A stretch of DNA of 64,000 nt from a virus: positions 37,996 to 101,995 of the IMG/VR virus record IMGVR_UViG_3300033148_003591; one strand, written 5' to 3'. The position numbers were made by a program, and so were the translations under genes. Below are positions 3,885 through 53,871 of this stretch, in pieces. The notes below the pieces were generated by a model, which saw only the letters and a list, made by a program, of their open reading frames with translations, did not search any database and was not told the DNA's origin. How positions within the stretch are numbered: the stretch's first letter is position 1; every line of letters begins with the position of its first letter.

Positions 3885-4652
3885 ATGAAAAGTAAGATAT
3901 GTACAAAATGTGGTAATGAAAAATTGTTGGATGAGTTTTCTCTCGATAAACGACGCCCAAATGGAAAAGGTTCTTGGTGTAAAGAATGCTGTAATATTCC
4001 GTCTAAAAAATATCGCCAAAAACATAAAAAAGAACGTAAAGAATATTATTTAGTACATAAAGAAGAAAATAAAGAAAAAGAAGCAACACGTCAGAAAAAA
4101 TGGTATAATGAACACAAAGAAGAAATAAAAATTAAAGGCAAAAAATATAGAAATAAGCATAAAGATGAAATGAAAAAACAAAAGAAAAAATATCGTGAAG
4201 ACCATAAAGAACAAATCGCTATTAAAGTTAAAAAATATCAACAGGAACATAAAGAAGAATTACGCAAACTGCGAAATAAACATTTAAAGAAAAGACGCAA
4301 AACAGACCTGCGGTTTAAAATAATAAGTAATTTAAGAGGATGTGTTAGACAAACAATCAAAGACAGCACAAAAACTCTGTCCACAATGTTTCTAATAGGT
4401 TGTGAAATTGACTACTTATTGTTTCATTTACAAAGTCAGTTTAAAGAAGGAATGTCGTGGGATAATTATGGGCGTGGTGATAATGGTCTAAAAGAATGGC
4501 ACATAGACCATCGTAGACCATGCGCCAGTTTTGATTTAAGCAAACCAGCAGAACAACAGAAATGCTTTAACTACAAAAATTTACAACCTCTTTGGGCAAA
4601 AGATAATTTATCCAAAGGTGCTAAGTGGAATATTAAGGATTCTGAGAATTAA
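3885..4652 (+). CDS. HNH homing endonuclease with zinc ribbon and Lys-rich repeat linker
   Basis: 255 residues. Residues 4-37 hold a zinc ribbon (CTKC ... CKEC). Residues about 44-145 are an extended lysine-rich linker built from five or six near-repeats of the form KKY-x-x-x-HKEE. The C-terminal domain carries the HNH core (WHIDHRRPCASFDL ... FNYKNLQPLWAKDN), the last part being the typical N-x-QPLW motif of this nuclease group. It is a paralogue of the gene at 23308-23889, which has the same ends but a shorter linker. It has its own early promoter and converges on, and overlaps by 20 nt, the gene at 4633. Probable selfish mobile gene rather than a phage function. Confidence 0.85.
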   Translation: MKSKICTKCGNEKLLDEFSLDKRRPNGKGSWCKECCNIPSKKYRQKHKKERKEYYLVHKEENKEKEATRQKKWYNEHKEEIKIKGKKYRNKHKDEMKKQKKKYREDHKEQIAIKVKKYQQEHKEELRKLRNKHLKKRRKTDLRFKIISNLRGCVRQTIKDSTKTLSTMFLIGCEIDYLLFHLQSQFKEGMSWDNYGRGDNGLKEWHIDHRRPCASFDLSKPAEQQKCFNYKNLQPLWAKDNLSKGAKWNIKDSEN

Positions 4653-5355
4653 GTTTTGTTCTTATGTAACTTCTCAATTTTTCTTGATTATAATTATATC
4701 CCTCAATTTTTCTAAGAAAAGATATAACACTTATTTTTTCAAATACATTAATTTGGCTGCTAGCAGATACATTATAGATTTTCAATGACTTTTCTGTAGT
4801 ATACGGCAAAAAAAGTTTATTCAAATCTGTATTTACATAGTAATCACGGTATCCACTTCCACGATGCATTGTGCTATAATAATGTGTATTACCTGTTTTA
4901 TTTGCATCAAACCCCAATAAATAAATACTTCCACTAAAATCTAACAAATAGCACGCCAAACTTAATGCTAAATGACCAGTGAGTGCATGGCAGTAGAAGC
5001 CTTTTACGAGACTTTTATCACGAAACCATGTGTGACTGTGTGCCTTTATAAAAACCGTGTTTAAAAGTTGGTTTTCTAGCGATTGTGTGGTATTTAAAGC
5101 GATAATAAGGGGTAATTTTGATAGATTTTCACGGTGAACCGGATTAAACTTGTTCCAGAGCTGAACCGTTGGGTCAAAATCAACCTTACCTTGATAAAAT
5201 TCACCATCTGCACACACTAATGCTGTTGGTGTAATATCTTTATATGAGTGATTACAAGCTAATGTGAATTTAGTAGATAGTGTTTGCCAGATATTTTGTG
5301 GGAACTTAGATAGACTATTTCCGCCACCGATGATTATAAGCTGTTTGGGGTTCAT
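4633..5355 (-). CDS. DUF115-like / sialyltransferase-like Rossmann protein
   Basis: 240 residues. Opens with IIIGGGNSLSKFP, then ACNHSYKDI and a DGEFYQG segment, and later GHLALSLACYL with IYLLGFDANKTGNTHYY. This order (G-G-G-x-S loop, Asn near a substrate, a central GxxA helix and a GFD-x-N motif) is seen in DUF115/MAF-like proteins and related glycan-handling enzymes. It is the last gene of the leftward operon and overlaps the methyltransferase-like gene upstream by 4 nt (ATGA). Together with the glycosyltransferase and KdsA genes further upstream it suggests sugar modification. Substrate unknown; family assignment is by eye. Confidence 0.5.
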   Translation of the reverse strand: MNPKQLIIIGGGNSLSKFPQNIWQTLSTKFTLACNHSYKDITPTALVCADGEFYQGKVDFDPTVQLWNKFNPVHRENLSKLPLIIALNTTQSLENQLLNTVFIKAHSHTWFRDKSLVKGFYCHALTGHLALSLACYLLDFSGSIYLLGFDANKTGNTHYYSTMHRGSGYRDYYVNTDLNKLFLPYTTEKSLKIYNVSASSQINVFEKISVISFLRKIEGYNYNQEKLRSYIRTKLNSQNP

Positions 5356-6836: not shown

Positions 6837-7172
6837 TTAAAATTTTTCATATTTATTTCCACAGTATTCCCAATCAGACCAATTTATATCAATCAAATGT
6901 TCATCACCCAAAAAGAAACTTCCTTGTTCCCATTCTATAGTTTTAATAACGTCATAATCACTAAGCCATCTAAATTGGTCTCCATTATAAATCTCTCTAT
7001 TATCTTTATCATTAACAGTAGTATATTGTAGTAAAGTAGTAATACCATTTGGTCTATAACTCCATCTTTCTCCAACAACTTCCCATTTAATATCGCCAGA
7101 TTCAGGCAGAATACCAACATTATATTGCATTCCTACTGTGTTGTTTGTATAGGCATTAAATTTTAGTTTCAT
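6837..7172 (-). CDS. YopX-family protein
   Basis: 111 residues with the typical YopX centre LLQYTTVNDKDNREIYNGDQ, corresponding to the family's (L/M)-x-QYTGLKDKNGKEIYEGD consensus, and the usual ending GNKYEKF. YopX-like proteins are common small genes of phages and prophages of low-GC bacteria; no biochemical function is established. Its start shares 1 nt with the stop of the glycosyltransferase-like gene upstream. Confidence 0.75.
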   Translation of the reverse strand: MKLKFNAYTNNTVGMQYNVGILPESGDIKWEVVGERWSYRPNGITTLLQYTTVNDKDNREIYNGDQFRWLSDYDVIKTIEWEQGSFFLGDEHLIDINWSDWEYCGNKYEKF

Positions 7173-7951
7173 TAAAAGCTCCTATAGTTATATTGAATCC
7201 ATCCTTCACGATTATCAACCATACCATTTATCTTACGCATCTTTTGGACAAATTCACTATACAATCTATTACGCATTTGTTTATATTCATCTGGCTTATC
7301 ATCTATGTAGTCTGCACTAATTTTATCTGTATAGTAAACTTCTACATTGTTTTCTTTTAATTGGTTGAAAAACGTCTCATGTTCACATAATTTTAATTCA
7401 TTATTCCAGGGATATTTTATTAATAATGCTGTAGGAGCTATAAAGAAATTTTTTACTATATCACACCGCTTATATTGTATTCCAGAAACTATTTCAAGGT
7501 CTCTGCATGGTCTATCTAAAATAAACTTACCCAATTCACGGTCTAACGTCATATCGTACTCAAATGGCTGTCTGTTGGCTAATTTCAGCCCAACAATAGC
7601 GTTATTATTTCTGGTTTTTATAAAATCAATAATAGGCTCAAAATTATACTTATCAGTAAATGCTATACTGTCTGCTGAAATAAGGCAGTATTTAATGCCC
7701 ATTTCGTGAGCTTTTTGAACTAAAAAGTTACGGGAGAAACTTAAACCACAGTCGTGAGGTAATCTATAAGCCAATGTTCGTTCATGTTGTAAACATTCTT
7801 TATAATATCCACAAGAGCATTTCATTAATGTATTTTGGTCGCCAATTAAAAGATAATAGTTATCTTTCATATTTTTAATAATAGAGGTTGTTGTTTTATA
7901 CACTAATTCATTTCTTAAAAATGTAGTATAAATTATAGCGATTTTTTCCAT
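7172..7951 (-). CDS. GT2-like glycosyltransferase
   Basis: 259 residues. Begins with the GT-A signature IAIIYTTFLRNELVYKTTTSI, followed by YYLLIGDQN, GLSFSRNFLVQKAHEMG and LISADSIAF, where SADS takes the place of the usual DxD sugar-nucleotide motif. A later CEHETFF motif is the acidic base region of GT2 enzymes. Contains a Cys cluster (CSCGYYKEC) that could bind a metal. Sits in the cluster that also holds the KdsA, fusion transferase and radical SAM genes, so it probably adds a sugar to a host glycan, phage protein or DNA base. Substrate unknown. Confidence 0.65.
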   Translation of the reverse strand: MEKIAIIYTTFLRNELVYKTTTSIIKNMKDNYYLLIGDQNTLMKCSCGYYKECLQHERTLAYRLPHDCGLSFSRNFLVQKAHEMGIKYCLISADSIAFTDKYNFEPIIDFIKTRNNNAIVGLKLANRQPFEYDMTLDRELGKFILDRPCRDLEIVSGIQYKRCDIVKNFFIAPTALLIKYPWNNELKLCEHETFFNQLKENNVEVYYTDKISADYIDDKPDEYKQMRNRLYSEFVQKMRKINGMVDNREGWIQYNYRSF

Positions 7952-9301: not shown

Positions 9302-10138
9302 TTATTCTCCAATCCTTTCTAAAAAATGGCAAGTGTTACATGGATATGATTTTTTACCATTTTTACTAACCGATTTTCTAAATTTATTAGCCTTTTTATT
9401 ATTAAAAATACTGAATATAGTTTCATTTTTATCTGTTAATTCACCCAAAATAAATTGTTCATGTTCTTTCCAATCACTTCTTAAATTACAGCACGGCATA
9501 ACAGAGCCATTATAGTCAATGTAAATACCATTAGTGGGTATAAAACATGGTGCAATTCTGTGTGGGGGTTTATTTAATGCTTTTAATATTCCTCCTCTAT
9601 TTGAACCAACATTTTTAAAATTTCTATAATATATTAATATTTCCATATCATTAAAATTAGTATCTTTTTGAATAAGTTCACTATTTATTTTATGACTATT
9701 AGGCTTCAATTTTAGTTCGGCAAGCTTATCACCAATCATGTCTAATACTTTTTCTTGTTTATCAGTATATATTTGAATATTTAAACTCCTTAATCCGTTG
9801 TCGTATAATTTAGAAATTTTATTTGCTGTTAAAAAATCGCCATTAGTATTAAAGTGTAATGTTGCATTTGGAAGATTTATTTTTGCATAATTTAATCTAT
9901 TATAAATTATATCATCTGCTAAAGGTTCATTATACCTAGAATATGTTATTATTTTATTATAGTTTATTTCTTTTAAATTAGCGATTATTTTATTATATGT
10001 ACAAGTATTCATAAATATATTTTTAGAATTTCTATCAATTATTGAATTAGGACAATGCCAGCACTGTCTATTACAATAAGAAAATGTTTCTATTTCTATT
10101 AAGTTTACAAGTTTTTTAAATCGTTTCATATTATTCAT
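9302..10138 (-). CDS. Radical SAM protein with SPASM-type C-terminus
   Basis: 278 residues from ATG 10138, which has GGAGA 7 nt upstream and overlaps the end of the fusion gene by 8 nt. The 4Fe-4S/SAM motif CNRQCWHC (CX3CX2C) is at residues 22-29, followed by FNTNGDFL (GGE-like/SAM binding) typical of the barrel. The last third (PCFIPTNGIYIDYNGSVMPC, then CC-N and a final CNTCHF) looks like a SPASM or twitch domain holding extra iron-sulfur clusters, as in peptide- or sugar-modifying enzymes. Directly coupled to the giant fusion and the KdsA gene, so it probably works on the same substrate, which is unknown. Confidence 0.8.
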   Translation of the reverse strand: MNNMKRFKKLVNLIEIETFSYCNRQCWHCPNSIIDRNSKNIFMNTCTYNKIIANLKEINYNKIITYSRYNEPLADDIIYNRLNYAKINLPNATLHFNTNGDFLTANKISKLYDNGLRSLNIQIYTDKQEKVLDMIGDKLAELKLKPNSHKINSELIQKDTNFNDMEILIYYRNFKNVGSNRGGILKALNKPPHRIAPCFIPTNGIYIDYNGSVMPCCNLRSDWKEHEQFILGELTDKNETIFSIFNNKKANKFRKSVSKNGKKSYPCNTCHFLERIGE

Positions 10139-13100
10139 GATTTCTCCAGTTTTTCCCGTATAACTGTTCAAGATACCCTATAACTGGCATTGGTACTGAT
10201 AGATTGCATCCATATAAACTTCTTGGTTTAGTATTTTTTGTCCATTTTAAAATATGAACTTTTATGCCATTTTTTGCATATGTATTTTTTTCTTCATCAT
10301 GTATAAACATTTTTTGCCTTAATAGGTTACTATTAATCTCTGGTGCTGATATAAAAATATCTGTTGTTGTACTTGATAATTTTGATTTTTTAATAGCTTC
10401 AAGGCATGTTCTTTGAAGTAAACAACAATCAGGAACTATATTTATAAAATCTAAAAATACACTTTGTATATTATCACTTACTTTAGGTACAATATTTGTT
10501 GTCTTTTTTTCTACTTCAATTATATCGGCAACTGGATAATTAACCAATTCGTATGGAGTTTGGTATCTAATATGTTTAACACGTTCTAATGTGCTACTAC
10601 CTCTTGAAGTCATTTTCATTTCGCACTCCATATAAAATTTATTTTTTAAATAATGCAAGAATTTTTCAACCAAATGCATATCGGGTTTTCTTGGATGATG
10701 AATATATTTTTTAAGTTTTCTTATACTATTCGCTTTTTTATTTATACCTTTAAAATTATAGAAACACTTACCTACAGTTATTACAGGTTTTCCCCACATC
10801 ATTGCTTGCAACCCAATACCAGAATTTATTGTTAAAACTATATCCGAATATTTAATGCAGTCTTTATAATGATATTTATCTACGATTTTAACATTTTTAC
10901 TTTCAGTCATTAATGTTGTTTCCACCGGATGATTCTTAACTAGAAATTCTACATTTCTCATACTGCATCCTAATTCCTTTATAATGTTTTGAAAATTAGG
11001 CATAGATTTTACCCAATCACTCCATAATAATATAGTTGTATCATTATATACCTGTGACGCAACGAAAACTTTAATTGTATCTTTAGATAAATCTAATTCT
11101 TCATAGAAGGTTTTTTTAGTAACAAATTCAGCATGCTGTTTTTCTAAGCTACATTCATCCTCAGTGAAAGATTTAATATATTCTTTAATTTGTTTCTTTT
11201 CATAGGCTGTTATTTTAACATCCCAATTTTTCTTTTTATATGAATCACTAAAGTATAAAAAGTTGTGCATATCTAAATAAATGCTTCCAGGTAATGCTCC
11301 ACGTTCAAGTACATAAGCTAATTTTCCAGCTTCTTTAAATTCATGCAACAAATCGTATTTCCATTGAAACTTCTTTGCTATTGTATAACTATATGTATTC
11401 CAAAGAATTAATGCTTTATTAGATTTTTTAACTCTTTCTATATTTCTGTCTAATTCAATGTCTAAATATTTGCTTAATTCTACAACATAAGGGTGTCTAA
11501 CTTCAGGACTGATAAATTGTATTTTTTTGATTTGACTAATTTTATCTTGTACTATTTTAAATTTAGGATTATTTTGGTCTGTAAAGAAATTTTTTTCTTT
11601 ATTAGAACATTCTTCAGTAAATAAAGACCCAAATGCTCCTAATAAGGCATACAGGTTTAATTCCGTTGGGTTTTTTTGTAGAATCTTCCATAATTTTACA
11701 GGAACTTTGGTATATTTATCTTTATTATTTTTAGTTCTATCCATCATATTATAATATCTTTGAAATATTGTGTAGTTTGACCAATAAGGACAATGGTCTC
11801 CCATAACCCTTCTGTCGTTTATTGTAGTAAAACCGTCATTTAGCAGTGCGATTTTTTGAGTATTTTCGCAGCATAAAGTATCTTCAAAAGGATACTTTTT
11901 TAATATTTCCGTTCTATTAATTCTAACGCCTTTAATTTTTCTATTCATATGTACATCATACAGGGAAAATAATAATGTAGAAACAGTTGGTTCATTTTTT
12001 AACATACTTGTGTGCATATTATTAACAGCTTCAGGTTTTAAAATGATATCTTCATCACATTGGATAAAGTATGGTGTTTTACACCTAATCATCATTTGAT
12101 TAAATGCGTCTGACATGGGTGCAATATCTTCTATTATGTCTAGTTTAAAATCAACGGTTTGGTTTTTTAAAGCCAATAGACATGCTTGATAATTTTTTTT
12201 CTTTTCAACAGCAATTACAAATACAGTTACATCTGAAGAAATATCTTGTTTTCCCTTATCCCATGCCCGCACTACATTTTTTGTTCTATAATGAATATCT
12301 CTATTCGTCATTCCTTTTTTTGATAAATCTATATCAGTATAAAATTTCGTGCCAGGAAAAGGTTCAAATTTATACCACCCTTGTACAGATAATTTATTTT
12401 TTTTAATAAAATCCAAAGTCATTTGTCTTTCTTCTTCTGTTTCTCCTGGTATATGATGCATAAAAGATGCTCGAACTGGTAACTTAATTGAACGTGCTAT
12501 GTCTATAGTATTTTGATTGTCGGCTACTGTGTTACCTTTGTTTAATATTTTTAGCACCCTATCACTTCCACTTTCAGCACCAAATCTAACTTCGTAATAA
12601 CCCATCTCTTTCATTTTTATAGCCGTTTCTAATGTAAACACACCGGCTCTAACAAAACTTCTTATCTTTAACCTTTTATGCCATCCTCTTGCCATCCACA
12701 TTTCATGAATTTTATTAAAGCGTGGTTTGTTTACGATAAATAAATCATCATAAATGTACAATGTTTTAATTTGAGGATATTTTTTAATTAAGAAATCAAC
12801 TTCTTTTATAAAATATTCAGCACTATGGAATCTTGTATTACCCCAAAAAACTTGTGAGCTACAAAAATTACAAGAAAATGGACACCCTCTTGAAGTGAAA
12901 ATAGGAATAACATCTGTACACCGACCTCGTTCTGGATAATTTAATGTATCAATATTTTCAATGTTTGGTAATTGAATAATTTTTTCGCTTGGGTTATTTT
13001 TTATAATATGATTTAAAGCTTGTTCACCCTCACCTTTTATTATATGTTTAAATGGGTATTTTTCTAAATCTTCCCAAAGCGTACATTGTCCACCAATAAT

Positions 13101-13319
13101 GATAGGAATGTTTTTAATTGATTTTAGAATTTGAATAGCTTCTTGAATACCCCAAGCATTAGAAGATAATCCTATATAGTCACAGTTTTTTAATTCCTTT
13201 GGGTTTCTAATTAATTCAATATCAGCATTACAATTGGTTTTTAGATAACCTATGCTCAATGGATATTCATTGTCAACAGGGTCTTCCCACCCACACTGAT
13301 ACATTTTAATTTTTTTCAT
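10131..13319 (-). CDS. Giant fusion: B12-binding radical SAM, GT2 and capsule-type transferase
   Basis: 1062 residues with several domains in one frame. Residues about 1-125: B12-binding-like Rossmann region (DYIGLSSNAWG, IPIIIGGQCTLW, GEGEQAL), though the cobalamin His motif is not obvious. About 135-335: radical SAM barrel with C146/C150/C153 (RGCPFSCNFC) and RFGAESGSDRVL. About 363-470: GT2-like domain (VTVFVIAVEKKKNYQACL ... IQCDEDIIL, DED at 422-424). About 610-880: capsule-polysaccharide/KpsS-like transferase (LERGALPGSIYLD, FLVKNHPVE, VLTINSGIGLQAMMWGKPV). The end (PVIGYLEQLYGKNW) recalls LicD-type enzymes. Lies directly before a SPASM protein and after KdsA. Likely builds or attaches an unusual sugar; acceptor unknown. 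Confidence 0.8.
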   Translation of the reverse strand: MKKIKMYQCGWEDPVDNEYPLSIGYLKTNCNADIELIRNPKELKNCDYIGLSSNAWGIQEAIQILKSIKNIPIIIGGQCTLWEDLEKYPFKHIIKGEGEQALNHIIKNNPSEKIIQLPNIENIDTLNYPERGRCTDVIPIFTSRGCPFSCNFCSSQVFWGNTRFHSAEYFIKEVDFLIKKYPQIKTLYIYDDLFIVNKPRFNKIHEMWMARGWHKRLKIRSFVRAGVFTLETAIKMKEMGYYEVRFGAESGSDRVLKILNKGNTVADNQNTIDIARSIKLPVRASFMHHIPGETEEERQMTLDFIKKNKLSVQGWYKFEPFPGTKFYTDIDLSKKGMTNRDIHYRTKNVVRAWDKGKQDISSDVTVFVIAVEKKKNYQACLLALKNQTVDFKLDIIEDIAPMSDAFNQMMIRCKTPYFIQCDEDIILKPEAVNNMHTSMLKNEPTVSTLLFSLYDVHMNRKIKGVRINRTEILKKYPFEDTLCCENTQKIALLNDGFTTINDRRVMGDHCPYWSNYTIFQRYYNMMDRTKNNKDKYTKVPVKLWKILQKNPTELNLYALLGAFGSLFTEECSNKEKNFFTDQNNPKFKIVQDKISQIKKIQFISPEVRHPYVVELSKYLDIELDRNIERVKKSNKALILWNTYSYTIAKKFQWKYDLLHEFKEAGKLAYVLERGALPGSIYLDMHNFLYFSDSYKKKNWDVKITAYEKKQIKEYIKSFTEDECSLEKQHAEFVTKKTFYEELDLSKDTIKVFVASQVYNDTTILLWSDWVKSMPNFQNIIKELGCSMRNVEFLVKNHPVETTLMTESKNVKIVDKYHYKDCIKYSDIVLTINSGIGLQAMMWGKPVITVGKCFYNFKGINKKANSIRKLKKYIHHPRKPDMHLVEKFLHYLKNKFYMECEMKMTSRGSSTLERVKHIRYQTPYELVNYPVADIIEVEKKTTNIVPKVSDNIQSVFLDFINIVPDCCLLQRTCLEAIKKSKLSSTTTDIFISAPEINSNLLRQKMFIHDEEKNTYAKNGIKVHILKWTKNTKPRSLYGCNLSVPMPVIGYLEQLYGKNWRNHE

Positions 13320-14122
13320 TACATCCCTTCCATTATTTTTAAAGTTTGTTTAACTACGTTTTCCGCTTCTGAGAAATTAAGAGAATTACTACCGTCACAT
13401 AAAGCTTTTTTTGGTGTTGGGTGAATTTCCATAAATATACCATTAACTCCATATGCTACTGAAGCTCTTGCTAAAGGTAAAATAAATTCTTTATTACCTA
13501 ATGATTTATTTCCACCAGCACTCGGTAACTGAACAGAATGAGTGCAATCAAATACTACAGGGTAATATTGTTTCATTATTGTAAACCCTGTAAAATCTAC
13601 TACTAATCTATGATACCCAAAAGAAGTTCCACGTTCTGTAAGTATAATATTAGTATTATTTTGGCTTTCAATTTTTTTAATTACATGTACTATATCATCT
13701 GGAGCTATAAATTGCCCCTTTTTAATATTAATTATTCTGCCTGTCTTTGCTAACCCTCCAACTAAATCTGTTTGTCTGCATAAGAATGCGGGTATTTGCA
13801 GAATATCTAAAGGTGATTTTTCTACCTCTTTTATTTCTGCTACAGAATGAACATCTGTTAATATTGGCAAATCGTATAAAATTTTTACTTGAGTTAAAAG
13901 TTCTATACCTCTTTTAATGCCCAAACCTCTATAAGCATCGTAAGAGGTTCTATTAGCTTTATCATAACTAGCTTTAAAAATAAACTGACACCCATATTTC
14001 ATTTTTAATTTTTTGACAAATCTTGCAGTTTCAAATAAAATCTTGTAATTTTCTATAGCACAATTTCCTACAATAAAAAATAATTTTGATTTTTTTATTT
14101 TGTCATACAATTTATTTTTCAT
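13319..14122 (-). CDS. kdsA: 3-deoxy-8-phosphooctulonate (Kdo-8-P) synthase
   Basis: 267 residues, near full family length. Condenses phosphoenolpyruvate with arabinose 5-phosphate, the first dedicated step to Kdo. Family motifs in order: GNCAIEN, FKASYDKANR, PILTDVHSV, LQIPAFLCRQTDL, NIKKGQFIAP, ERGTSFGYH, VVFDCTHSVQ, FMEIHPTP. The Cys at residue 21 in GNCAIEN corresponds to the metal-ligand Cys of the metal-dependent class. Start shares 4 nt with the upstream cupin gene and its stop shares 1 nt with the fusion gene, so the three are co-translated. A phage kdsA is rare; related NeuB-like enzymes are the main alternative, but the motifs favour KdsA. Confidence 0.88.
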   Translation of the reverse strand: MKNKLYDKIKKSKLFFIVGNCAIENYKILFETARFVKKLKMKYGCQFIFKASYDKANRTSYDAYRGLGIKRGIELLTQVKILYDLPILTDVHSVAEIKEVEKSPLDILQIPAFLCRQTDLVGGLAKTGRIINIKKGQFIAPDDIVHVIKKIESQNNTNIILTERGTSFGYHRLVVDFTGFTIMKQYYPVVFDCTHSVQLPSAGGNKSLGNKEFILPLARASVAYGVNGIFMEIHPTPKKALCDGSNSLNFSEAENVVKQTLKIMEGM

Positions 14123-14517
14123 AGGTTTAATAATCCTTTATCTTTTAACTCTGGTATAGGTATTTCTGCACCATCAATAATTAACCCACCCTGAATCTGT
14201 CTAATTATATCATCTGGATTTATATCAGTGTCAATTGTATAAGCTATTTCAATTAGCACAGAATTTTCTAAAGCTTTAAATTTATGCACTAATGGTGGAT
14301 GAACTTCAAAAGTTTCATTTATGCCTAATACTTTAGTACCAAGTTCACTTATAATTTCCACTTTACCAGAAACCAATATAAACTTGTTTATTTTTTCTTT
14401 GTGATGATGCACAGAGCAAAAACTATCTCTCTTTAACTGCAATAAATCTATTTCGTTGTGATTATCAAGATGAATTCTTTGTTTAATACCCCAAATTTTA
14501 AAACTATTATTTGACAT
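14119..14517 (-). CDS. Cupin-domain sugar isomerase-like protein
   Basis: 132 residues, one cupin barrel. Metal-binding motif 1 is SVHHHKEKINKFILVSG (His-His-His then Lys/Glu spacing), motif 2 is HPPLVHKFKAL. This is like mannose-6-phosphate-isomerase type cupins and nucleotide-sugar epimerases. Translationally coupled to kdsA (ATGA) and to the basic gene upstream (TAATG), which suggests a step in preparing the sugar, for instance an isomerisation feeding KdsA. Reaction not proven by sequence. Confidence 0.65.
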   Translation of the reverse strand: MSNNSFKIWGIKQRIHLDNHNEIDLLQLKRDSFCSVHHHKEKINKFILVSGKVEIISELGTKVLGINETFEVHPPLVHKFKALENSVLIEIAYTIDTDINPDDIIRQIQGGLIIDGAEIPIPELKDKGLLNL

Positions 14518-23307: not shown

Positions 23308-23889
23308 TTATTTCGTTTTCCATTTAGAACCTTTAGTTAAATTATCTTTTGCCCACAAAGGCTGTAAGTTTGTGTAATTAAAGCATTTACGTTGTTCAGA
23401 TTTTTTACTTAAATCAAAGCTGATACATGGTCTTTTGTGGTCAATGTGCCACTTACCATAGTTATCCCAATTCATTCCTTTAGTAAATTGAGACTGAAGA
23501 TGATATAATAAATAGTCAACTTCGCAACCAATTAAAAACATTGTGGATAGTGATTTATTATTATTTTTTATAGAAGCATTCATACGTCTTCGTAAATTAC
23601 GCAGAATTTTAAAATTTATATCTTTTTTATATTTATCTGTAAACCATTTATTCTTTTCTTTTTTATGTTTTGAATTATATTTTTTAACATCCAGAGATAT
23701 TTTTTCTTTATTTTTTAATCTATAAATAACTCGCCATTTTTTATATTCAAACTTATGATTATCTCTGTATTTTTTATTTCTTATATTATCACATATTTTA
23801 CACCAACTACATTTTCCATCAACATGGGATGCATTTGGATAAAATTCATCTAAAGATTTTTCTATTTTACATTTAGTACAAATTTTCAT
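23308..23889 (-). CDS. HNH homing endonuclease, paralogue of 3885-4652
   Basis: 193 residues from ATG 23889, which shares 1 nt with the stop of the A1-like gene; an in-frame ATG at 23901 is also possible. Zinc ribbon CTKC ... CKIC, a Lys-rich linker shorter than in the paralogue, then LSTMFLIGCEVDYLL and the HNH core WHIDHKRPCISFDL ... NYTNLQPLWAKDNL. Inserted between the A1-like gene and the Rad50 N-half. Confidence 0.85.
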   Translation of the reverse strand: MKICTKCKIEKSLDEFYPNASHVDGKCSWCKICDNIRNKKYRDNHKFEYKKWRVIYRLKNKEKISLDVKKYNSKHKKEKNKWFTDKYKKDINFKILRNLRRRMNASIKNNNKSLSTMFLIGCEVDYLLYHLQSQFTKGMNWDNYGKWHIDHKRPCISFDLSKKSEQRKCFNYTNLQPLWAKDNLTKGSKWKTK

Positions 23890-25481
23890 TACAGTTTCCA
23901 TTTCCCATATACAGAAAATATCATTTGTCTACTTCCATTAGAATAAACTAAGCATCCAGCATTAGCCCATCCACTAGCCCCTCTATTATAACCCACTTTA
24001 AGATATGTACTTGTTCCTACAACCCACACACCACGAACAATGGCTGGAGAATGAGCATGACCAATTATACAATTACCATAAGCATTTTCTAAGTTTCTAA
24101 TATTTCCTCTTGAGCCATTGCTACCTAAATCACCGTGAGCACCACATTCAATCTTGGCAATTACATAATCTTCATCCCTATTTAGCCATTTAATTGATTT
24201 TCTTAATCTCTTGGGTAATCTGCCTACACTTTCAATGGCATATTTTAATGGGTCACAACCCTTAATTTGTGCTTCGGCTAAATGTAAAGCTGTTCTTAAA
24301 TTATATGGGTCATGAATATAATCTCCACTTTCTAACCATTTATCAAGCCATTCATCATGATTTGATTTAACAATAACAATTTCTTTAACACCGTTTAATC
24401 GTATACCTTTAATATAATTTGCTATTTTAATAAACTCATTATCCATGTTTAATTGTCCTTTTATAGCCTTTCTTGCTTGTAATGAGCGTCTTTTTTTATC
24501 GTGATGGCATACTGCTGTACCATTGTATAAATCATGAATAATCCATTTTTTACAATTTGTGAATTTTGAAATTTCATACCAATTTCTTATTACCTCTAAA
24601 TCTGTATCACCAATATGAAAATCTCCAGGTACAAATGCTGTAGGAGCTAATTTAGATACTTTATTGTTATTATATAACTTACCTAAATCCACAAATGAAC
24701 CATTTGCATCTGCTTGAATCTGTCTAAAATAAAATACACGGCTATCTTTAATTTCAACAATGATAGCACCTAATGTATGGTCACTTTCAGCAATATAAGC
24801 AGTTCGTTTGCTAAAATAATAACTACTGTCATAATCTGATTCTGTAATTGCGCCTGTGGTCATTAATACGGCAGGTATTTTTACATTTGAAACAGGCACT
24901 GCTTCTAAGAACTGTTTAGGTGATGCATAAATACAGCTTCCATTCCTTTGACCTATACGTTTTAATCCGGTTAATGGATTAATTTGTTTGGCTGAAATTT
25001 TGATTGAAGAAATGAATAAATTATTATTTAACTTCGTATCTCTCATAATAACTTGTTCGCCCTTTAAATCATTACTTAAATAGAATTCTGTTTTACTTCT
25101 TCTTTTTGCAGGGTCTTCAATTGGAAGAATAAGTAATTTGGCTTTATTTACTTTACAATAGTGTTTAATACTATTTAAAAATTTAACATTTACTTTTCCA
25201 TCAGATACGGCTGTTGTTACTATAAATTTATCTCCTGGCTTTACATTTAATTGTTCTTTTTTTACAGTGCCATCGAAAATATTAAATCCAATATTATTTT
25301 CAATTAATTTTTTATTTTCTTTTATAACTATTTTCTTTAAATTTGTAAGACAAGCAAAATGTTTCCTGATAATATTTCGATTTATACCAGCATTAAACAT
25401 GTCTGTTCTTGTAGGAAAGGTTTTTTTAGTTTTTAATATTGATAAATAAATATCTATTATTTGTTTATCTCTTTTTGTCAT
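23889..25481 (-). CDS. T5 A1-like metallophosphoesterase
   Basis: 530 residues. N-terminal helix-turn-helix-like region (RDKQIIDIYLSILKT), then a calcineurin-type phosphoesterase core: VPGDFHIGDTD, IIHDLYNG, IVKSNHDEWLDKWL, CGAHGDLGSNGSRG, IIGHAHSPAIV. This arrangement resembles the A1 protein of T5, which is needed for host DNA breakdown and completion of DNA entry. A role in degrading host DNA is inferred from that resemblance. The start lies 2 nt after the stop of the small gene upstream, with GGAG inside that gene's end. Confidence 0.7.
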   Translation of the reverse strand: MTKRDKQIIDIYLSILKTKKTFPTRTDMFNAGINRNIIRKHFACLTNLKKIVIKENKKLIENNIGFNIFDGTVKKEQLNVKPGDKFIVTTAVSDGKVNVKFLNSIKHYCKVNKAKLLILPIEDPAKRRSKTEFYLSNDLKGEQVIMRDTKLNNNLFISSIKISAKQINPLTGLKRIGQRNGSCIYASPKQFLEAVPVSNVKIPAVLMTTGAITESDYDSSYYFSKRTAYIAESDHTLGAIIVEIKDSRVFYFRQIQADANGSFVDLGKLYNNNKVSKLAPTAFVPGDFHIGDTDLEVIRNWYEISKFTNCKKWIIHDLYNGTAVCHHDKKRRSLQARKAIKGQLNMDNEFIKIANYIKGIRLNGVKEIVIVKSNHDEWLDKWLESGDYIHDPYNLRTALHLAEAQIKGCDPLKYAIESVGRLPKRLRKSIKWLNRDEDYVIAKIECGAHGDLGSNGSRGNIRNLENAYGNCIIGHAHSPAIVRGVWVVGTSTYLKVGYNRGASGWANAGCLVYSNGSRQMIFSVYGKWKL

Positions 25482-30662: not shown

Positions 30663-31225
30663 TATACAATCCTTTCTGATAACTTTTTCCATAACAATCT
30701 AGTTGCTCTTACATCGGCTAAAGCATTGTGTGCGTTATCTAATGTAATACCAAATTCTTTACAAGCTGTTTCTAACTTAATATTTTTCATATCAAATTTA
30801 CCAACAGAGACTAAACTTAATAACAATGCTGCTGTATCCATTTTATGATAGTCAAGATAACTACCGCAAAAATTGTTACCACCCTTTTTAAAAAATTCAA
30901 ATAAAAATCCTACATCAAATCCTATAACATGCCCACAAGAAATAAACTTATCATGCTTATTATATTTATCAATATACTTATCAAAAATAGTAACAATCTT
31001 ATTTAATACTACTTTAGGTGCTGGATAAGTTTTTAATTGTTCAACTGTTGTTTTATTTATTTCTAAGGCTCGTTGAGATATATTAATAAAATTATGTGGT
31101 CTAACATTAAAATCAAATTCTTCCTTTACTATACTATCAATTTCTATTATTCCCGCAATTTCAATAATATCATTTTCTACAGGATTAACACCTGTTGTTT
31201 CAGTGTCTAAGTAAAATATCTTCAT
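30662..31225 (-). CDS. DnaQ-like 3'-5' exonuclease (DEDDh)
   Basis: 187 residues from ATG 31225 (an in-frame GTG precedes it directly; the upstream stop overlaps as TGATG). DEDDh motifs: FYLDTETTG (Exo I), VIGFDVGFLFEF (Exo II) and LDNAHNALADVRAT (Exo III with the catalytic His). Probably extra proofreading or repair nuclease, since the polymerase carries its own exonuclease domain. Directly downstream of a homing endonuclease gene. Confidence 0.82.
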   Translation of the reverse strand: MKIFYLDTETTGVNPVENDIIEIAGIIEIDSIVKEEFDFNVRPHNFINISQRALEINKTTVEQLKTYPAPKVVLNKIVTIFDKYIDKYNKHDKFISCGHVIGFDVGFLFEFFKKGGNNFCGSYLDYHKMDTAALLLSLVSVGKFDMKNIKLETACKEFGITLDNAHNALADVRATRLLWKKLSERIV

Positions 31226-31683
31226 CACTCATTCTCTCCTTTAACATGTTTCCAAATATAACCATTTGCTGTTTTACGTTTACCTAAACAAACTTTGGAA
31301 ATATTTTGATTAGCGAAACCTAACTTTCTTTCAACTTCATGCATACTTTTCCAACTTCTAATAAAATTTCCTTGTAAATCGTATTGGTTAACTGGTTTTT
31401 CTTTATCTTTTCCGGCATTTATAGGCATTTCAATAAATCTACAATTTTCAAAGGTGTAATTTTCGTTATTATCCTTTCTATCTATACTAGGTTTTTCAAG
31501 CAACCATGCTTTATCCCTAAACCATAATCTCTTTACTTCTTTTGTAGTAATTAAACATTTAATTCCTCTACCGCCATAACGATGATAACCACAGTAATTT
31601 TTATTTGTGCATCTATTTTTAGCATCTGCTCTGATTGAAATCCAGGGATGTTCTTTTCTCCATCTTTTTATTGTGTTATTCAT
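31225..31683 (-). CDS. HNH/NUMOD1 homing endonuclease copy 1
   Basis: 152 residues from ATG 31683, which overlaps the upstream gene by 8 nt. Core: RYGGRGIKCLIT ... LEKPSIDRKDNNENYTFENC, followed by the DNA-binding NUMOD1 part QYDLQGNFIRSWKS ... ISKVCLGKRKTANGYIWK. Paralogue of the genes at 32861 and 40121. Its stop overlaps the DnaQ-like gene's start. Confidence 0.8.
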   Translation of the reverse strand: MNNTIKRWRKEHPWISIRADAKNRCTNKNYCGYHRYGGRGIKCLITTKEVKRLWFRDKAWLLEKPSIDRKDNNENYTFENCRFIEMPINAGKDKEKPVNQYDLQGNFIRSWKSMHEVERKLGFANQNISKVCLGKRKTANGYIWKHVKGENE

Positions 31684-32137
31684 TCTCGCCAACACCTTGT
31701 TTTTTAAACTCATATTTCTTATTTAGCGACTGTCTCTCACAATCTTTAATTCCGCAATAAGACCTGCTAATATATCCTTCTAACACTGTAACCAAATCAT
31801 AATAACTCTTAATTGCAATTTCCGCTTTAGACTTTACAGCCGTATCTGTCATTCCTTTTTCACCACTTTTTTTATATTCATAAATCTTTTCGTGTTTAAT
31901 GTTGTGCCTATATGATTCTCCTTTAACCGAAATAGATTTTAAAAACATAATACATCCGGTTAATTTCTTAGTTATGTTATCATAATCTGCAAATGTCAAT
32001 CCATCATTGTTTAAAAGGTCTCCGTTTACTACATCAATCATTTCCATCACAGGTTCACAATTATCTAATAGTTCTACAATACCTTCTTCTGTCTGTATTA
32101 ATTCCTTAATTTTTTCATAACTCAATGGTAATATCAT
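31676..32137 (-). CDS. Conserved-looking hypothetical phage protein
   Basis: 153 residues, helical and charged. The central stretch TGCIMFLKSISVKGESYRHN and IYEYKKSGEKGMTDTAVKSK, then YISRSYCGIKDCERQ, looks conserved but is not a family I can name. Start shares 1 nt with the previous stop. Lies among recombination genes and is followed directly by a homing endonuclease gene, a pattern that often marks a conserved essential gene. Confidence 0.5.
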   Translation of the reverse strand: MILPLSYEKIKELIQTEEGIVELLDNCEPVMEMIDVVNGDLLNNDGLTFADYDNITKKLTGCIMFLKSISVKGESYRHNIKHEKIYEYKKSGEKGMTDTAVKSKAEIAIKSYYDLVTVLEGYISRSYCGIKDCERQSLNKKYEFKKQGVGENE

Positions 32138-32615: not shown

Positions 32616-32861
32616 TTATTTATAACTATTATAATACATTTTCAATTCTTCTTTTGTTGCATTTCTTTTTAATCTACATTCAGCCACTATTTCAACATTA
32701 CGTGTTCTGCCATTAAATACTGATGCAACAATAATCATATATTTCCTCATTGTTATATTGTGTTTTTCTTTTAATTCTTTTTTAATATAATTTAAAATTA
32801 ATTTTGTCTTTTTACCCCATAATTTTTTAGGTAAATTAACAATAACTCTATAACTATCCAT
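32616..32861 (-). CDS. Small basic hypothetical protein
   Basis: 81 residues from ATG 32861 (GGAGG upstream; an in-frame GTG precedes it). Basic, with a long Lys-rich helix (KTKLILNYIKKELKEKHN) and a strand pair. Start overlaps the HNH gene stop by 1 nt. Possibly nucleic-acid binding by charge. Confidence 0.45.
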   Translation of the reverse strand: MDSYRVIVNLPKKLWGKKTKLILNYIKKELKEKHNITMRKYMIIVASVFNGRTRNVEIVAECRLKRNATKEELKMYYNSYK

Positions 32862-33385
32862 CACTCCTCCTTAAATTTCCAAACAAATCCCCACATCTGT
32901 TTATATTTTCCATTACACACTTGAGAAATGCCCGTATGTACCAATCCCAATTTTCTTTCAATTTCTCTTGCACTCTTCCAACTCCTAATAAAATTTCCTT
33001 GTAAATCATATTGGTTTATAGGTTTTGAAGAAACCCAAACATTTTTTTCTGCAACATTTTTAGCTAATTCAATAAATCTACAATTTTTAAAAATATAATC
33101 TCCATCATTATCTTTTCTATCAATACTTGGTTGTACTTGTGAATAGGCTTTATCACGAAACCAAAGTTCTTTTAATTCTTCTACAGTGATTAAACACTTA
33201 ATACCACGACCACCATAACTATCATAATTAATACATTTTGAATTATTACACCGTTCTTTAATGTGATTAAAAACCACTTTCCAGGGATATTTTTTTCGCC
33301 ACTGTTTATTTTGATAATTACGTTTGATTTTATTTTTTAAATAATGATTGTGGTCATAAATTTTCTTTTCTTCTTTTGTCATCAT
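32861..33385 (-). CDS. HNH/NUMOD1 homing endonuclease copy 2
   Basis: 174 residues, starting on the ATGA that ends recA. Core SYGGRGIKCLIT ... VQPSIDRKDNDGDYIFKNC, NUMOD1 part QYDLQGNFIRSWKSAREIERK. Differs from copies at 31225 and 40121 mainly in the N-terminal 40 residues. Classic placement of a homing gene directly behind recA. Confidence 0.8.
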   Translation of the reverse strand: MMTKEEKKIYDHNHYLKNKIKRNYQNKQWRKKYPWKVVFNHIKERCNNSKCINYDSYGGRGIKCLITVEELKELWFRDKAYSQVQPSIDRKDNDGDYIFKNCRFIELAKNVAEKNVWVSSKPINQYDLQGNFIRSWKSAREIERKLGLVHTGISQVCNGKYKQMWGFVWKFKEE

Positions 33386-39225: not shown

Positions 39226-40128
39226 TTACCTTCCTTCCTTTAATTTTTGAGCTTTTAAAGCCAACCTTTTAGCTTTCCCTTTTTCAGACTGTTTTTTCTT
39301 CTGTGCCTTTTCTTTTTTAATATAATATTTTTCACATTCTTCCATTGTTAATATATTACTTTTACCATAAGCTTGTTGTATTCTATATTGAAATTTATCA
39401 AAGTACGGCAAATCTTCCCAATTATATCCAGCACTCATGTCTAACTTTAAAATTATTTTCTTTAATGGCTCAGTCACGAAATTAGGAAGAGAAATTAAAT
39501 CATTGCAAAGCTTCCGATTATCATAGGCTTCCTCTGTATAGGTTTCATTTTCCATCCCATCTTTGGCTTCTTTTTGTGATTTCTTAGCAATTATTTTTAC
39601 TACATCAAAATTTTTGGGTTTTATTTTCCACGCACCCTTACTGGATTTATATTTCTTTTTGGGTGAAAAAATAGATACGTTTGGATAATACCACATTTGC
39701 TCAATATCGCCATCTGATGTAATAAATACTAATTCTTTATCCTTTATAACTTGCGGAAGGATACCAAAAAAATCATCCGCCTCAAACCTATTAAGACATA
39801 AGAATTTTATTCCTATCCATTCTAAATCCTGTTGTAACTCTTCTGCTAACCGCCAAATTAATGTCCAATTCCTCCCTGATTTTTTTCTCATGTCTTTACG
39901 TTGGTGCTTATATTTTTTTTCGTAGTCGGAACGCCAACAGCCTTCTAAATGTGTTAAATCTTTCGCCACAACTATAACATCATTTTCATTTAAACCAATT
40001 TTACGCAAATGTGATGTCATCATATTTAATACTTGATATTTTAAACCGTATTCTGGTATAGCTTTAGCAAAGCCTATCACATGGATGTAGATTAAATAAT
40101 CAAAAACTATAATTTTTTGCTTATCCAT
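39226..40128 (-). CDS. 5'-3' exonuclease/flap endonuclease (T5 D15-like)
   Basis: 300 residues, the length of T5 D15. Motifs: IIVFDYLIYIHVIGF (first Asp), VVAKDLTHLEGCWRSDYEKK YK region (basic arch for the 5' end), NRFEADDFFGIL and ITSDGDIEQM (metal-binding Asp clusters). Removes RNA primers and flaps in replication. C-terminus is strongly basic (KKKQSEKGKAKRLALKAQK). Starts inside the end of an HNH gene. Confidence 0.82.
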   Translation of the reverse strand: MDKQKIIVFDYLIYIHVIGFAKAIPEYGLKYQVLNMMTSHLRKIGLNENDVIVVAKDLTHLEGCWRSDYEKKYKHQRKDMRKKSGRNWTLIWRLAEELQQDLEWIGIKFLCLNRFEADDFFGILPQVIKDKELVFITSDGDIEQMWYYPNVSIFSPKKKYKSSKGAWKIKPKNFDVVKIIAKKSQKEAKDGMENETYTEEAYDNRKLCNDLISLPNFVTEPLKKIILKLDMSAGYNWEDLPYFDKFQYRIQQAYGKSNILTMEECEKYYIKKEKAQKKKQSEKGKAKRLALKAQKLKEGR

Positions 40129-40672
40129 TACTATACCTCCAAATAAACCTATTGGCTGTTTTTCGTTTTCCCAAACAAACTTTAGAAATATTTTGATTAG
40201 CGAATCCTAAAAGGTTTTCTATTTCAACTGCACCCTTCCAACTTCTAATAAAATTACCTTCTAAATCATATTGATTAATTGGTTTATATCTGTCTTTTAT
40301 AGTATTTATAGACATCTCTATAAATTTACAATTTTCAAATATATAATCTCCATTATTATTTTTTCTGTCAATTGATGGTTTTTGCAACAACCAAGCTTTA
40401 TCTCTGAACCAAAGTTCTTTTAATTCTTCTGCGGTGATTAAACATTTTATACCACGCCCACCCCAATCTTTATATCGTTTATCATTTGGATTATTACACC
40501 TTTGCTTAATATGATTAAAAACCACTTTCCAAGGATACTTTTTACGATATTCTTTTCTCAAAAAATTAAAACAAAATTTGCACTGAGAACGTTTTCCGTT
40601 TTTACCTCTTTTATTTGAATAAAACTCATCAAATATTTTCTCTTCACTGCATTTACTACAAATTTTCTTCAT
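40121..40672 (-). CDS. HNH/NUMOD1 homing endonuclease copy 3 with zinc ribbon
   Basis: 183 residues. N-terminal zinc ribbon ICSKCSEEKIFDEFYSNKR ... CKFC is like those of the genes at 3885 and 23308, whereas the rest (DWGGRGIKCLIT ... QKPSIDRKNNNGDYIFENC ... QYDLEGNFIRSWKG ... VCLGKRKTANRFIWR) matches the NUMOD1 copies at 31225 and 32861. So this gene is a combination of two endonuclease types. Overlaps the MazZ-like gene end by 17 nt and the flap exonuclease start by 8 nt. Confidence 0.82.
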   Translation of the reverse strand: MKKICSKCSEEKIFDEFYSNKRGKNGKRSQCKFCFNFLRKEYRKKYPWKVVFNHIKQRCNNPNDKRYKDWGGRGIKCLITAEELKELWFRDKAWLLQKPSIDRKNNNGDYIFENCKFIEMSINTIKDRYKPINQYDLEGNFIRSWKGAVEIENLLGFANQNISKVCLGKRKTANRFIWRYSNG

Positions 40673-51480: not shown

Positions 51481-51913
51481 GGAATTTCTCTAAATATTTC
51501 CATTTTTCTTCATCCGGTAAAATAACTATTTGTTGAAGATGATATTCCCAATTACCAGTATTAATTGTTGGATTTAATTCGTACATACAAAAACTACTAA
51601 CCATTGTCTGTCCAAATTTTTTAAGTTCTTCCATTTGCATTTCTGAAATATCATCCTTTAATTCATTTAAATTATTTCTTATTTTATTTGAGTCACACCA
51701 AATAGAACCATCTGTTATTTTCTGTTTTCCATCACCCCAAATAGCTTTAGCAAATTCATGTGTTGAAACACAAGCGAACCAAATTCCATCTTCTATTATT
51801 TTATTTATAGACCACATCTTCTCTGAAAAACACATATCATTCCAACCTTTTTGTGAGCATCCGTTTAAAATAGCTTTATCTATCATCTTTATTAATATCT
51901 CTGCTTTATTCAT
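51467..51913 (-). CDS. Hypothetical protein of the HEFAKAIWG/WxxHLQQI family
   Basis: 148 residues from ATG 51913 (GGAGA upstream; an in-frame TTG lies 12 nt before it). Shares THEFAKAIWGDG, NWEYHLQQIV and KYLEKFL with the shorter paralogue at 19494. Extra central part contains CFSEKMWS. Its final codons overlap the early promoter at 51453. Function unknown. Confidence 0.6.
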   Translation of the reverse strand: MNKAEILIKMIDKAILNGCSQKGWNDMCFSEKMWSINKIIEDGIWFACVSTHEFAKAIWGDGKQKITDGSIWCDSNKIRNNLNELKDDISEMQMEELKKFGQTMVSSFCMYELNPTINTGNWEYHLQQIVILPDEEKWKYLEKFLDKT

Positions 51914-53102
51914 TATCTTCTCCAATCTTTAAATGAGGAATTATAAATAGGCATAATGATGTACAAATACTTGCAATTATCACATTTGTATTATACCCAA
52001 AATTATCATAAATTATCCCACCAATTGCACTTCCTATTTTACTGGCTAAATTATTAGCTGAAGTAACTAACGCATAAAATAGAGCCTCACTTCCTGTTGG
52101 TAATATTTTCACCATAAAACTCATTACCGCTAAAAACGAAATCCCTTCAAATGCACCGAACAATAAACTATAATAAATAAGAAACCATTTATTAGGAATA
52201 TATAAATAAAATAAATTAGTTATCGCTCCAAAAATTATTGTAAAATATAACATCTTTTTCAATGGAAAATTATGTGCTTTCCAATAATACAATCCATACC
52301 CAACCAACCCAATCACAGTTCCAATAACTCCAACATAACCTAAAAATATTTTACCTATAAATAATTCTTCTCTGCATTTTATCATTAAAGCTGTACCAAA
52401 TCCAGGGCTAAATCTCAGTAAAACCAAAAATGCCAAACCAAGTAAAAAATCCTTGTTCTTCAAATACTTAAACACACTCCACGTAAATTTTTTAACCTCT
52501 TTAATTGGTTGTTCAAAATACTTTGTTTTAAGGTAAATTAAAGCACTTATTGGTATTATTAAGCAGATAGCATAGGCTACCTTATAATTTAGCGGTGTGG
52601 GCAGTGTAGAGGCTAAATATGCACCTAATAGTGATACTACAAGACTGCAAATAGCTAGTGCACTCCACTGCACGGACTGGATTTTGCCCTTTAAATTATG
52701 CTTCCGTTCAAGTATACACATCTGTTTATCATTGGCTACATCTGCCAAAGCAATGCCTATATTAATTAATAATCCGGTAATAATAAGACTGATTAAATTT
52801 AACCCAAAAATAACAATATAAATTATACAAGCTATAATTAGCCAATAAGCAATATACAAATAGTATTTAGATAAATACCCCTTTATGGGTCTATAATCAT
52901 TAAGGTAGCCCCATATAACTTTTGTATACCACGCTAAACCAGTTATTAATCCAATCACCCCTAATGTGGTCGCAGAAAGACCCCATGATTCTCTAAGAAG
53001 GTAATATAAGCATTGGTCTGGTAATCCAGATAATCCTTGATTAGAATAACATATCACAAAAAATAAAAATGTCCAAAATGGAATTTTGTATTCCTTTTTC
53101 AT
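51906..53102 (-). CDS. MFS/BT1-like 12-helix transporter
   Basis: 398 residues with about twelve transmembrane helices and a central basic loop (LKTKYFEQPIKEVKKF). Start helix WTFLFFVICYSNQGLSG, later ALADVANDKQMC and RFSPGFGTALMIKCREEL, and a final Gly-rich pair of helices (SKIGSAIGGIIYDNFG). The layout and the PGFGTA motif resemble BT1/folate-biopterin or PucC-like members of the major facilitator superfamily. A full transporter gene is very rare in phages. Substrate unknown; it shares the operon with a B12-radical SAM protein. Confidence 0.65.
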   Translation of the reverse strand: MKKEYKIPFWTFLFFVICYSNQGLSGLPDQCLYYLLRESWGLSATTLGVIGLITGLAWYTKVIWGYLNDYRPIKGYLSKYYLYIAYWLIIACIIYIVIFGLNLISLIITGLLINIGIALADVANDKQMCILERKHNLKGKIQSVQWSALAICSLVVSLLGAYLASTLPTPLNYKVAYAICLIIPISALIYLKTKYFEQPIKEVKKFTWSVFKYLKNKDFLLGLAFLVLLRFSPGFGTALMIKCREELFIGKIFLGYVGVIGTVIGLVGYGLYYWKAHNFPLKKMLYFTIIFGAITNLFYLYIPNKWFLIYYSLLFGAFEGISFLAVMSFMVKILPTGSEALFYALVTSANNLASKIGSAIGGIIYDNFGYNTNVIIASICTSLCLFIIPHLKIGEDNE

Positions 53103-53103
53103 A

Positions 53104-53871
53104 TCATCTCCTACTCTTTCTTACCATTTGGCTAAATTCGTCAATTATAGTATTGGTATCATTCATAAAGCATTTAAAATCTAAATACTCATGATATACA
53201 GATTTACCTAAAGTTTTATCCAAAATATGATTTACCTGCATCATACATAAACTAAAATTGACTTTCTCGAATGGATGTCCTATAACAAATAAATGAATAT
53301 AATGACCTAATAAATTAATCAATGTACCCTGAAATGGTCTACAATACCACCACATATTACCATTTGCTCGGTCTTTAATAAGTGCTTTTATTTGTAACAT
53401 TAAATTACTCATTAAAATTAAATAATATTTAACATTCTCGTTAGCCGGTAGTTCTAATGATAAACCATTATGTGTATTTGATATCCGATGCCATGCAAAT
53501 CCATGTATTCCATTTATTGTTGGTCGAATAATATCTCCAAATTTTAATTTATATTTTTTCAATTCTTTATTATACCATTCTTTTTTTAAACATGGTCTCT
53601 GTAAATTAATATGAAACTCAGGCTCATCCCTTAATGCATTAATTACAGGTCTATTTAATACAGGTGTTTTTGTATAACCTTTATAACCTCGCTCAGTCAT
53701 AGCCCTATGTTGTGCTTTTAAAGAATCTCTAAACCATATATAATTAGCCGATTCACTAAGTGTATTATTAATATCTGTATTAAGATATTGTTCAAATAAT
53801 GCTCGTGCATCTAATATATTCATGACATAATTTTGATTAATTTTCTTTTGATAAAATTTAGTTATCTTCAT
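53104..53871 (-). CDS. Unknown protein with possible degenerate Fic-like motif
   Basis: 255 residues, helical. The segment LLGHYIHLFVIGHPFEKVNF resembles the Fic/Doc region (helix, then HPF-x-D-G-N-G-R), but Asp-Gly and Gly-Arg are replaced (HPFEKVNFS), so AMP-transferase activity would not be expected. N-terminal LDARALFEQYLN and WFRDSLKAQHRAMTERGYKG are not recognised. Start overlaps the B12-radical SAM gene stop by 4 nt (ATGA), so both are made together. The Fic link is a weak inference. Confidence 0.4.
   Translation of the reverse strand: MKITKFYQKKINQNYVMNILDARALFEQYLNTDINNTLSESANYIWFRDSLKAQHRAMTERGYKGYTKTPVLNRPVINALRDEPEFHINLQRPCLKKEWYNKELKKYKLKFGDIIRPTINGIHGFAWHRISNTHNGLSLELPANENVKYYLILMSNLMLQIKALIKDRANGNMWWYCRPFQGTLINLLGHYIHLFVIGHPFEKVNFSLCMMQVNHILDKTLGKSVYHEYLDFKCFMNDTNTIIDEFSQMVRKSRR

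Follow-up and report, generated by a model that had tools for sequence, protein, structure and literature searches.

This article concerns a 1062-residue protein of a virus (IMG/VR record IMGVR_UViG_3300033148_003591) that joins a radical S-adenosylmethionine (SAM) module, a glycosyltransferase family 2 (GT2)-type module and a module like the retaining beta-transferases of 3-deoxy-D-manno-octulosonic acid (Kdo) in one chain, and that probably serves the phage in building an unusual surface sugar, chemically altered and containing Kdo. The window, by which I mean the whole 64,000-nucleotide stretch analysed, spans bases 37996-101995 of the 101,995-base virus record, and the fusion stands third in a compact operon, behind genes for a cupin and the Kdo-8-phosphate synthase KdsA and ahead of a radical SAM/SPASM gene (Table 1). 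The glycosyltransferases of phages are commonly regarded as plain decorators; radical SAM, GT2 and beta-Kdo-type modules in one protein, placed behind Kdo synthesis, yield instead the testable prediction of a new phage-made sugar structure. A preliminary description, made by reading the sequence without database searches, had already seen a multi-enzyme protein here, and its reading made no use of the KdsA partner encoded directly upstream.

One frame and its three modules

The fusion is, as that description had it, a single uninterrupted open reading frame (ORF) of 1062 codons on the minus strand, lying within an open frame of 1072 codons with zero internal stops and homogeneous in base composition (guanine-plus-cytosine, GC, content 0.27-0.31 across the segments). 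Neighbouring genes of the operon overlap by a few bases each, the kdsA stop and the fusion start at TAATG and the fusion stop and the downstream radical SAM/SPASM gene at ATGAATAA. Single-protein scans gave no close relatives of the whole fusion and zero full-length homologues, no other protein with the order radical SAM, GT2, capsule-type was found, in agreement with the novelty first claimed for it, and no account of such a fusion turned up in the literature that was searched. The combination of a B12-class radical SAM module with a beta-Kdo-type module was seen only in this protein.

The capsule-type transferase proposed for the third module is borne out by a match of residues 611-905 to Capsule_synth (PF05159; E 4.9e-15, 56.2 bits against a cut-off of 20), and a profile of the window and rhizobial sequences (A1) retrieved KpsC (6mgd, E 1.8e-7) and WbbB (5fa0, E 2.3e-4) from the PDB. 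Entry 5fa0 we take to be the WbbB module, in line with the 8cs entries, which fall in the same sequence group. KpsC and WbbB are retaining beta-Kdo transferases (PMC10148158, PMC9587256), enzymes in which QXXXD is the nucleophile motif (PMC10148158) and the histidine of the HP motif the leaving-group acid (PMC9587256), and both QXXXD (Q756-D760) and HP (H797) are invariant between the phage and the rhizobial capsule-region proteins. The closest homologues of this module in the plasmid collection are rhizobial GT2-Capsule_synth proteins, some of them in the rkp-3 capsule region, and rhizobial-type prophages likewise carry GT2-Capsule_synth proteins. On prophage-type viral contigs (L011, L012, L013, L014, L015) such a protein lies between apparent tail genes, where lysogenic capsule modification is a possible role.

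The upstream KdsA lies above the equivalog cut-off (TIGR01362, 324.4 against 314; PRK05198, 344.7 against 242) and matches the solved KdsA 1fwn of the PDB at E 3.7e-75. A second phage pairing of this kind is found in the huge phage LR756500, where a stretch of 8 kb holds kdsA, probable kdsB and kdsD genes (these two named by sequence look only) and a Capsule_synth protein with the QXXXD and HP motifs. Capsule_synth was present in two of the 34 records tested, the window record and LR756500, both of which also carry KdsA, a co-occurrence that illustrates the association and does not test it, since LR756500 was picked for its KdsA. Several other apparent sugar genes lie in the same unannotated run as its Kdo cassette (LR756500.1 116094-146870; L004).

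For the middle of the protein, read earlier as GT2-like with a DED motif (422-424), Pfam has no hit over residues 346-610, and even the relative L105 barely reaches PF00535 (23.4 against 23.3), but 33 non-redundant relatives and a confident GT-A model uphold the reading. Relatives in viral contigs, with E values down to 1e-53, were recovered with a DNA pattern built around YFIQCDEDI, and alignment of the recovered relatives led to 18 bacterial-genome and 18 viral loci. Across 34 sequences the module positions T20, Q42, P56, A60, D77 and D79 are among those that never vary, the two aspartates of the DxD motif (D422/D424) included. The AlphaFold2 (AF2) model made with this alignment reaches a predicted local distance difference test (pLDDT) score of 88.8 and a predicted template modelling (pTM) score of 0.84, and the Foldseek matches listed for it in the PDB, WrtF, SpsA and K4CP included, are GT-A/GT2-type glycosyltransferases (E 9e-9 to 1e-6). 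In a tree the window module falls within a supported phage-only group of eight (98/95), and a tblastn search with two module members against 50,697 phage records gave nothing at E 0.01. The idea that the module was copied from the GT2 domain of the rhizobial proteins was rejected (hhalign probability <1%). The same GT2 module is also contained in proteins of 2100-2300 residues in metagenome-assembled genomes (MAGs) of Nitrospira (L093, L096, L097, L099, L100, L101); L093, the only one of these loci scanned, adds further glycosyltransferase and methyltransferase domains.

The N-terminal module is a radical SAM domain with the CX3CX2C motif previously noted at residues 146-153: residues 141-305 match PF04055 (E 1.5e-18, 67.9 bits against a cut-off of 29.5), and C146, C150 and C153 are intact together with GAESGS. 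The best NCBIfam subfamily models for the head are those of the B12-type enzymes PhpK, ApyD, HpnJ and BchE, all scoring far below their cut-offs (at best 90 bits against 600, for TIGR04479), which leaves the head outside the named class B subfamilies. The B12-binding head that had been proposed for the protein is only partly supported by these comparisons, in that NCBIfam B12-radical SAM models align colinearly from residue 56 and hhalign to a Pfam-positive B12-radical SAM protein aligns the fusion from residue 42, whereas Pfam finds no B12-binding PF02310 in residues 1-130 and the head is shorter than in its relatives. The nearest of its phage B12-radical SAM relatives that were inspected are surrounded by nucleotide-sugar and methyltransferase-like genes, and a degenerate DNA pattern for radical SAM gave zero matches. 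A second B12-binding/radical SAM protein (PF02310 and PF04055) is encoded elsewhere in the window, two genes from a BT1/major facilitator superfamily (MFS)-type transporter (PF03092, E 7.6e-24), in a group of genes at 53868-55451, 51906-53102 and 53104-53871, and the relative phage G006, introduced below, encodes a transporter 31% identical to this one.

The remaining residues, 906-1062, have no match in Pfam, NCBIfam or PDB. The LicD-like ending once assigned to them is rejected because the C-terminus has no profile match (LicD, PF04991) and has lost the DDD motif: the stretch 965-997 resembles the LicD motif with TTD at the catalytic DDD position, its score is equalled by 20 of 3000 shuffles and surpassed by one unrelated ORF of the window, and hhalign with two real LicD proteins gives about 1%. 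A decayed LicD relic might conceivably sit there. Three of the four segments first delimited therefore gave independent strong matches to the named families in the named order, the LicD segment being the one that did not.

Coupling of the GT2 module to radical SAM enzymes

When viral records with the GT2 module were counted, near-identical ones being taken once and the window excluded, 15 independent records remained, and 10 of them have a radical SAM domain or gene joined to the module, next to it or two genes away. The radical SAM domain is in the same chain in six (L109, L110, L115, L116, L118, L120), in the next gene in three (L113, L114 and L121, the last below the Pfam cut-off) and two genes upstream in L112, while four records have none and L105 has one about 3 kb away. 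Chance would place a radical SAM gene within 3 kb in about one record in five, as estimated from about 19 radical SAM matches in 0.64 Mb of 16 other viral contigs (one per 34 kb), controls that are themselves chance DNA-pattern matches forming an unmatched sample with related contigs in it. A further GT2-radical SAM-SPASM fusion occurs on a Bipolaricaulota MAG contig (L104), a contig that binning may have assigned to the MAG although it is phage DNA, as its neighbours look phage-like by eye. Nine of the ten phage-record partners fall in one family; with L104 counted in and L121 out, its ten members are about 300 residues long and roughly 27-42% identical, and the GT2-linked partners score best against peptide- or cofactor-maturase models. 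Membership of the window's SPASM protein in this family found no support (no BLAST match, 19 bits against 348-432 for members). That this coupling recurs in phage contigs unrelated to one another suggests a function for which annotation has no name yet, and I would tentatively entertain, as something short of an even call, a widespread unnamed class of phage glycan-building enzymes in which the DED-GT2 module, coupled physically or genetically to a radical SAM enzyme, serves a general radical strategy on sugars or a glycosylated acceptor, this phage additionally making its Kdo precursor and attaching Kdo through the same chain.

G006 (105,887 bases, the source of L112) is a distant relative of the phage, with structural and replication proteins about 20-36% identical and in broadly the same order, and at the corresponding place it encodes a 1054-residue fusion of the GT2 module with two glycosyltransferase family 4 (GT4)-type modules and no radical SAM domain, beside a homologue of the sialyltransferase-like protein (L112:10636-11352, 32% identity to window 4633-5355). 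A syntenic fusion with other partners points to a sugar locus whose position stays the same while the partners of its central GT2 module change.

A proposed pathway and its alternatives

For the operon as a whole I favor, with the scales about level, a role in glycan modification in which Kdo, or an ulosonic acid like it, is made by the phage and attached to a glycan, with a sugar altered by radical chemistry. Its own KdsA would make Kdo-8-phosphate, and the host's KdsC and KdsB would finish cytidine monophosphate (CMP)-Kdo, a step assigned to the host because no KdsB was found in the record; the beta-Kdo-type module, working through an adduct on aspartate D760 and with the help of H797, would then attach Kdo or a similar ulosonic acid. 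The sugar next to it would be added by the GT2-type module (D422/D424), and one sugar of this glycan would be methylated, dehydrated or epimerised by the N-terminal radical SAM module, perhaps together with the radical SAM/SPASM protein that is translated next. The product would most likely alter the polysaccharide on the surface of the infected host, which might for instance keep rival phages out, and the glycosyltransferases of SAR11 phages have been proposed to change the surface so as to counter coinfection (PMC7029224). The earlier idea of a sugar change followed by transfer agrees with KdsA, the cupin, the downstream sugar-transfer genes and the beta-Kdo-type module, while the channelling and C-methylation that were part of it are conjectural.

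Several points weigh against this pathway. The activities of the modules, and the substrate of the radical SAM enzyme with them, are predictions from sequence; kdsB has no match in the record, which may be incomplete and in which kdsC and kdsD were not searched for as families; and the two radical SAM proteins at the locus stand outside the GT2-linked partner family, so that the window would show the same kind of coupling with different enzymes. Candidates for the general-base glutamate are E726, which never varies across profile A1, and position 672, occupied there by E or D, and sequence alone singles out neither of them; the AF2 model of residues 600-1062 is unusable (pLDDT 38). To these may be added the donor range of Capsule_synth relatives, considered below.

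The main rival is virion glycosylation, in which the operon would decorate a phage structural protein, a side chain or sugar being modified by radical chemistry before GT2 and ulosonic acid transfer. The sugar region of the window does adjoin tail genes, the GT2/radical SAM pairs of L109, L114, L118 and L120 appear on a sequence look to lie among virion genes, many radical SAM/SPASM enzymes act on peptides, and the partners score best against the maturase models named above; I nevertheless find it rather unlikely, as KdsA, the cupin and the beta-Kdo-type module point to envelope-type sugars and the clusters of L112, L115, L144 and L145 hold, by eye, WbqC-, PIG-L-, sulfotransferase- and sugar-epimerase-like genes. 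Somewhat less probable still is another donor for the capsule module, either a pseudaminic or sialic CMP-ulosonic acid or something unrelated, with KdsA serving a different step or boosting host lipopolysaccharide (LPS). The nearest homologues sit in rhizobial capsule regions, which make varied K-antigens, and a sialyltransferase-like gene belongs to the same region as the fusion. Moreover, KpsS1, named as a pseudaminic acid (Pse) transferase in PMC12887879, indicates that Capsule_synth relatives can use other donors, this being the remaining point against Kdo; on the other side, the Kdo-8-phosphate synthase is encoded directly upstream, NeuB (PF03102) gave no significant match, and the solved relatives found are the Kdo transferases KpsC and WbbB.

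That the radical SAM head is left over from recombination and is catalytically silent or a regulator, beside transferase modules that alone matter, would accord with its missing B12-binding match and short length, with the G006 fusion that does without such a domain, and with the finding that none of 80 viral B12-radical SAM loci carries the GT2 or capsule module of the fusion, but the intact CX3CX2C and GAESGS, the score of the core and the recurrence of radical SAM enzymes beside the same GT2 module in other phages make it improbable. Least probable by far is an artefact, an assembly chimera or a lost stop that joined separate genes: the record is metagenome-derived and offers no identical second copy or full-length homologue, yet the open codons, the uniform GC, the short overlaps with both neighbours and the G006 fusion, with the same GT2 module at the syntenic place, all speak against it, and the frame and its GC likewise count against the frameshift that the preliminary description had allowed for. 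Glycan modification with Kdo or a similar ulosonic acid is the reading favored here.

The surrounding locus

Table 1. Features of the fusion and its sugar region (positions in the window).
Feature	Position	Strand	Evidence
1062-residue fusion: B12-like/radical SAM, GT2-type (DED), beta-Kdo-transferase-like (Capsule_synth), unassigned C-terminus	10131..13319	minus	
Residues 1-130, compact Rossmann region resembling B12-binding domains, supported only in part	12930..13319	minus	
Residues 131-345, radical SAM core	12285..12929	minus	PF04055
CX3CX2C cluster motif (C146, C150, C153)	12861..12884	minus	
Residues 346-610, GT-A module, GT2-type, with family members in phages and bacterial MAGs	11490..12284	minus	alignments A2, A3; AF2; Foldseek
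QCDED, residues 420-424, DxD (metal/nucleotide-binding)	12048..12062	minus	both D invariant in 34 sequences
Residues 611-905, Capsule_synth module like retaining beta-Kdo transferases	10605..11489	minus	PF05159, profile A1
QXXXD (QVYND, residues 756-760), nucleophile motif of retaining beta-Kdo transferases	11040..11054	minus	
HP motif (H797, P798), leaving-group acid in retaining beta-Kdo transferases	10926..10931	minus	
Residues 906-1062 and stop, no family assigned	10131..10604	minus	
KdsA, 3-deoxy-8-phosphooctulonate (Kdo-8-P) synthase	13319..14122	minus	TIGR01362, PDB 1fwn
Cupin, mannose-6-phosphate-isomerase C-terminal type; first cassette gene, overlaps kdsA	14119..14517	minus	PF01050, 25.9 bits, cut-off 23.6
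Radical SAM/SPASM protein, 278 residues from ATG overlapping fusion stop	9302..10138	minus	PF13186 E 5e-11, PF04055 E 7e-8
Probable small GT2-like glycosyltransferase, weak evidence	7172..7951	minus	NF038299 E 4.4e-4
Sialyltransferase-like protein, last gene of sugar region	4633..5355	minus	phrog_4603 E 1.3e-4

Elsewhere in the record, a terminase-like protein of 1007 residues (L002:14404-17427; G000:C1:14404-17427) matches a 548-residue G006 protein in two pieces, and its middle looks like an intein. Endonuclease VII/HNH-like genes are spread over the record in many copies (window 3885-4652, 23308-23901, 31225-31713, 32861-33385 and 40121-40672, and L002/L003), several of which match the same few G006 genes.

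Comparison with known systems

Among class B radical SAM enzymes, PhpK, ApyD, HpnJ and BchE align with the fusion over the radical SAM core and part of the N-terminal region, and differ in that the N-terminal domain of the fusion is short and the GT2 module takes the place of their C-terminal part. The phage DED-GT2/radical SAM pairs (L104, L109, L110, L113-L116, L118, L120) share the GT2 module and have a radical SAM enzyme in the chain or the next gene, but theirs is SPASM-type and C-terminal or separate, whereas that of the window fusion is B12-class, N-terminal and of another family. The rhizobial GT2-Capsule_synth proteins (L006-L010, L011-L015) have a capsule module 24-31% identical and likewise a GT2 module before it; their GT2, however, is Glyco_tranf_2_2 and not of the DED family, they lack a radical SAM head, and several end in C-terminal tetratricopeptide repeat (TPR)-type repeats.

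Phage-borne Kdo synthesis genes also occur in the LR756500 cassette and as kdsA/kdsB in Synechococcus phage S-SCSM2R, and LR756500 shares the QXXXD Capsule_synth transferase as well; in both phages these genes stand apart, unfused and without a match to the fusion protein, and kdsB, probable together with kdsD in LR756500, was not found in the window record. KpsC (GT107), the GT99 module of WbbB and KrkA (GT140) all have, like the fusion, a Capsule_synth-type module with QXXXD and HP, although no radical SAM module is described in them and their overall similarity to it is low. A parallel in architecture comes from KrkA, a single chain that adds Kdo and ribose and in which a bacterial beta-Kdo module is fused to another sugar-transfer module (PMC12887879), just as the phage fusion would unite a Kdo transferase with another sugar-transfer activity in one chain.

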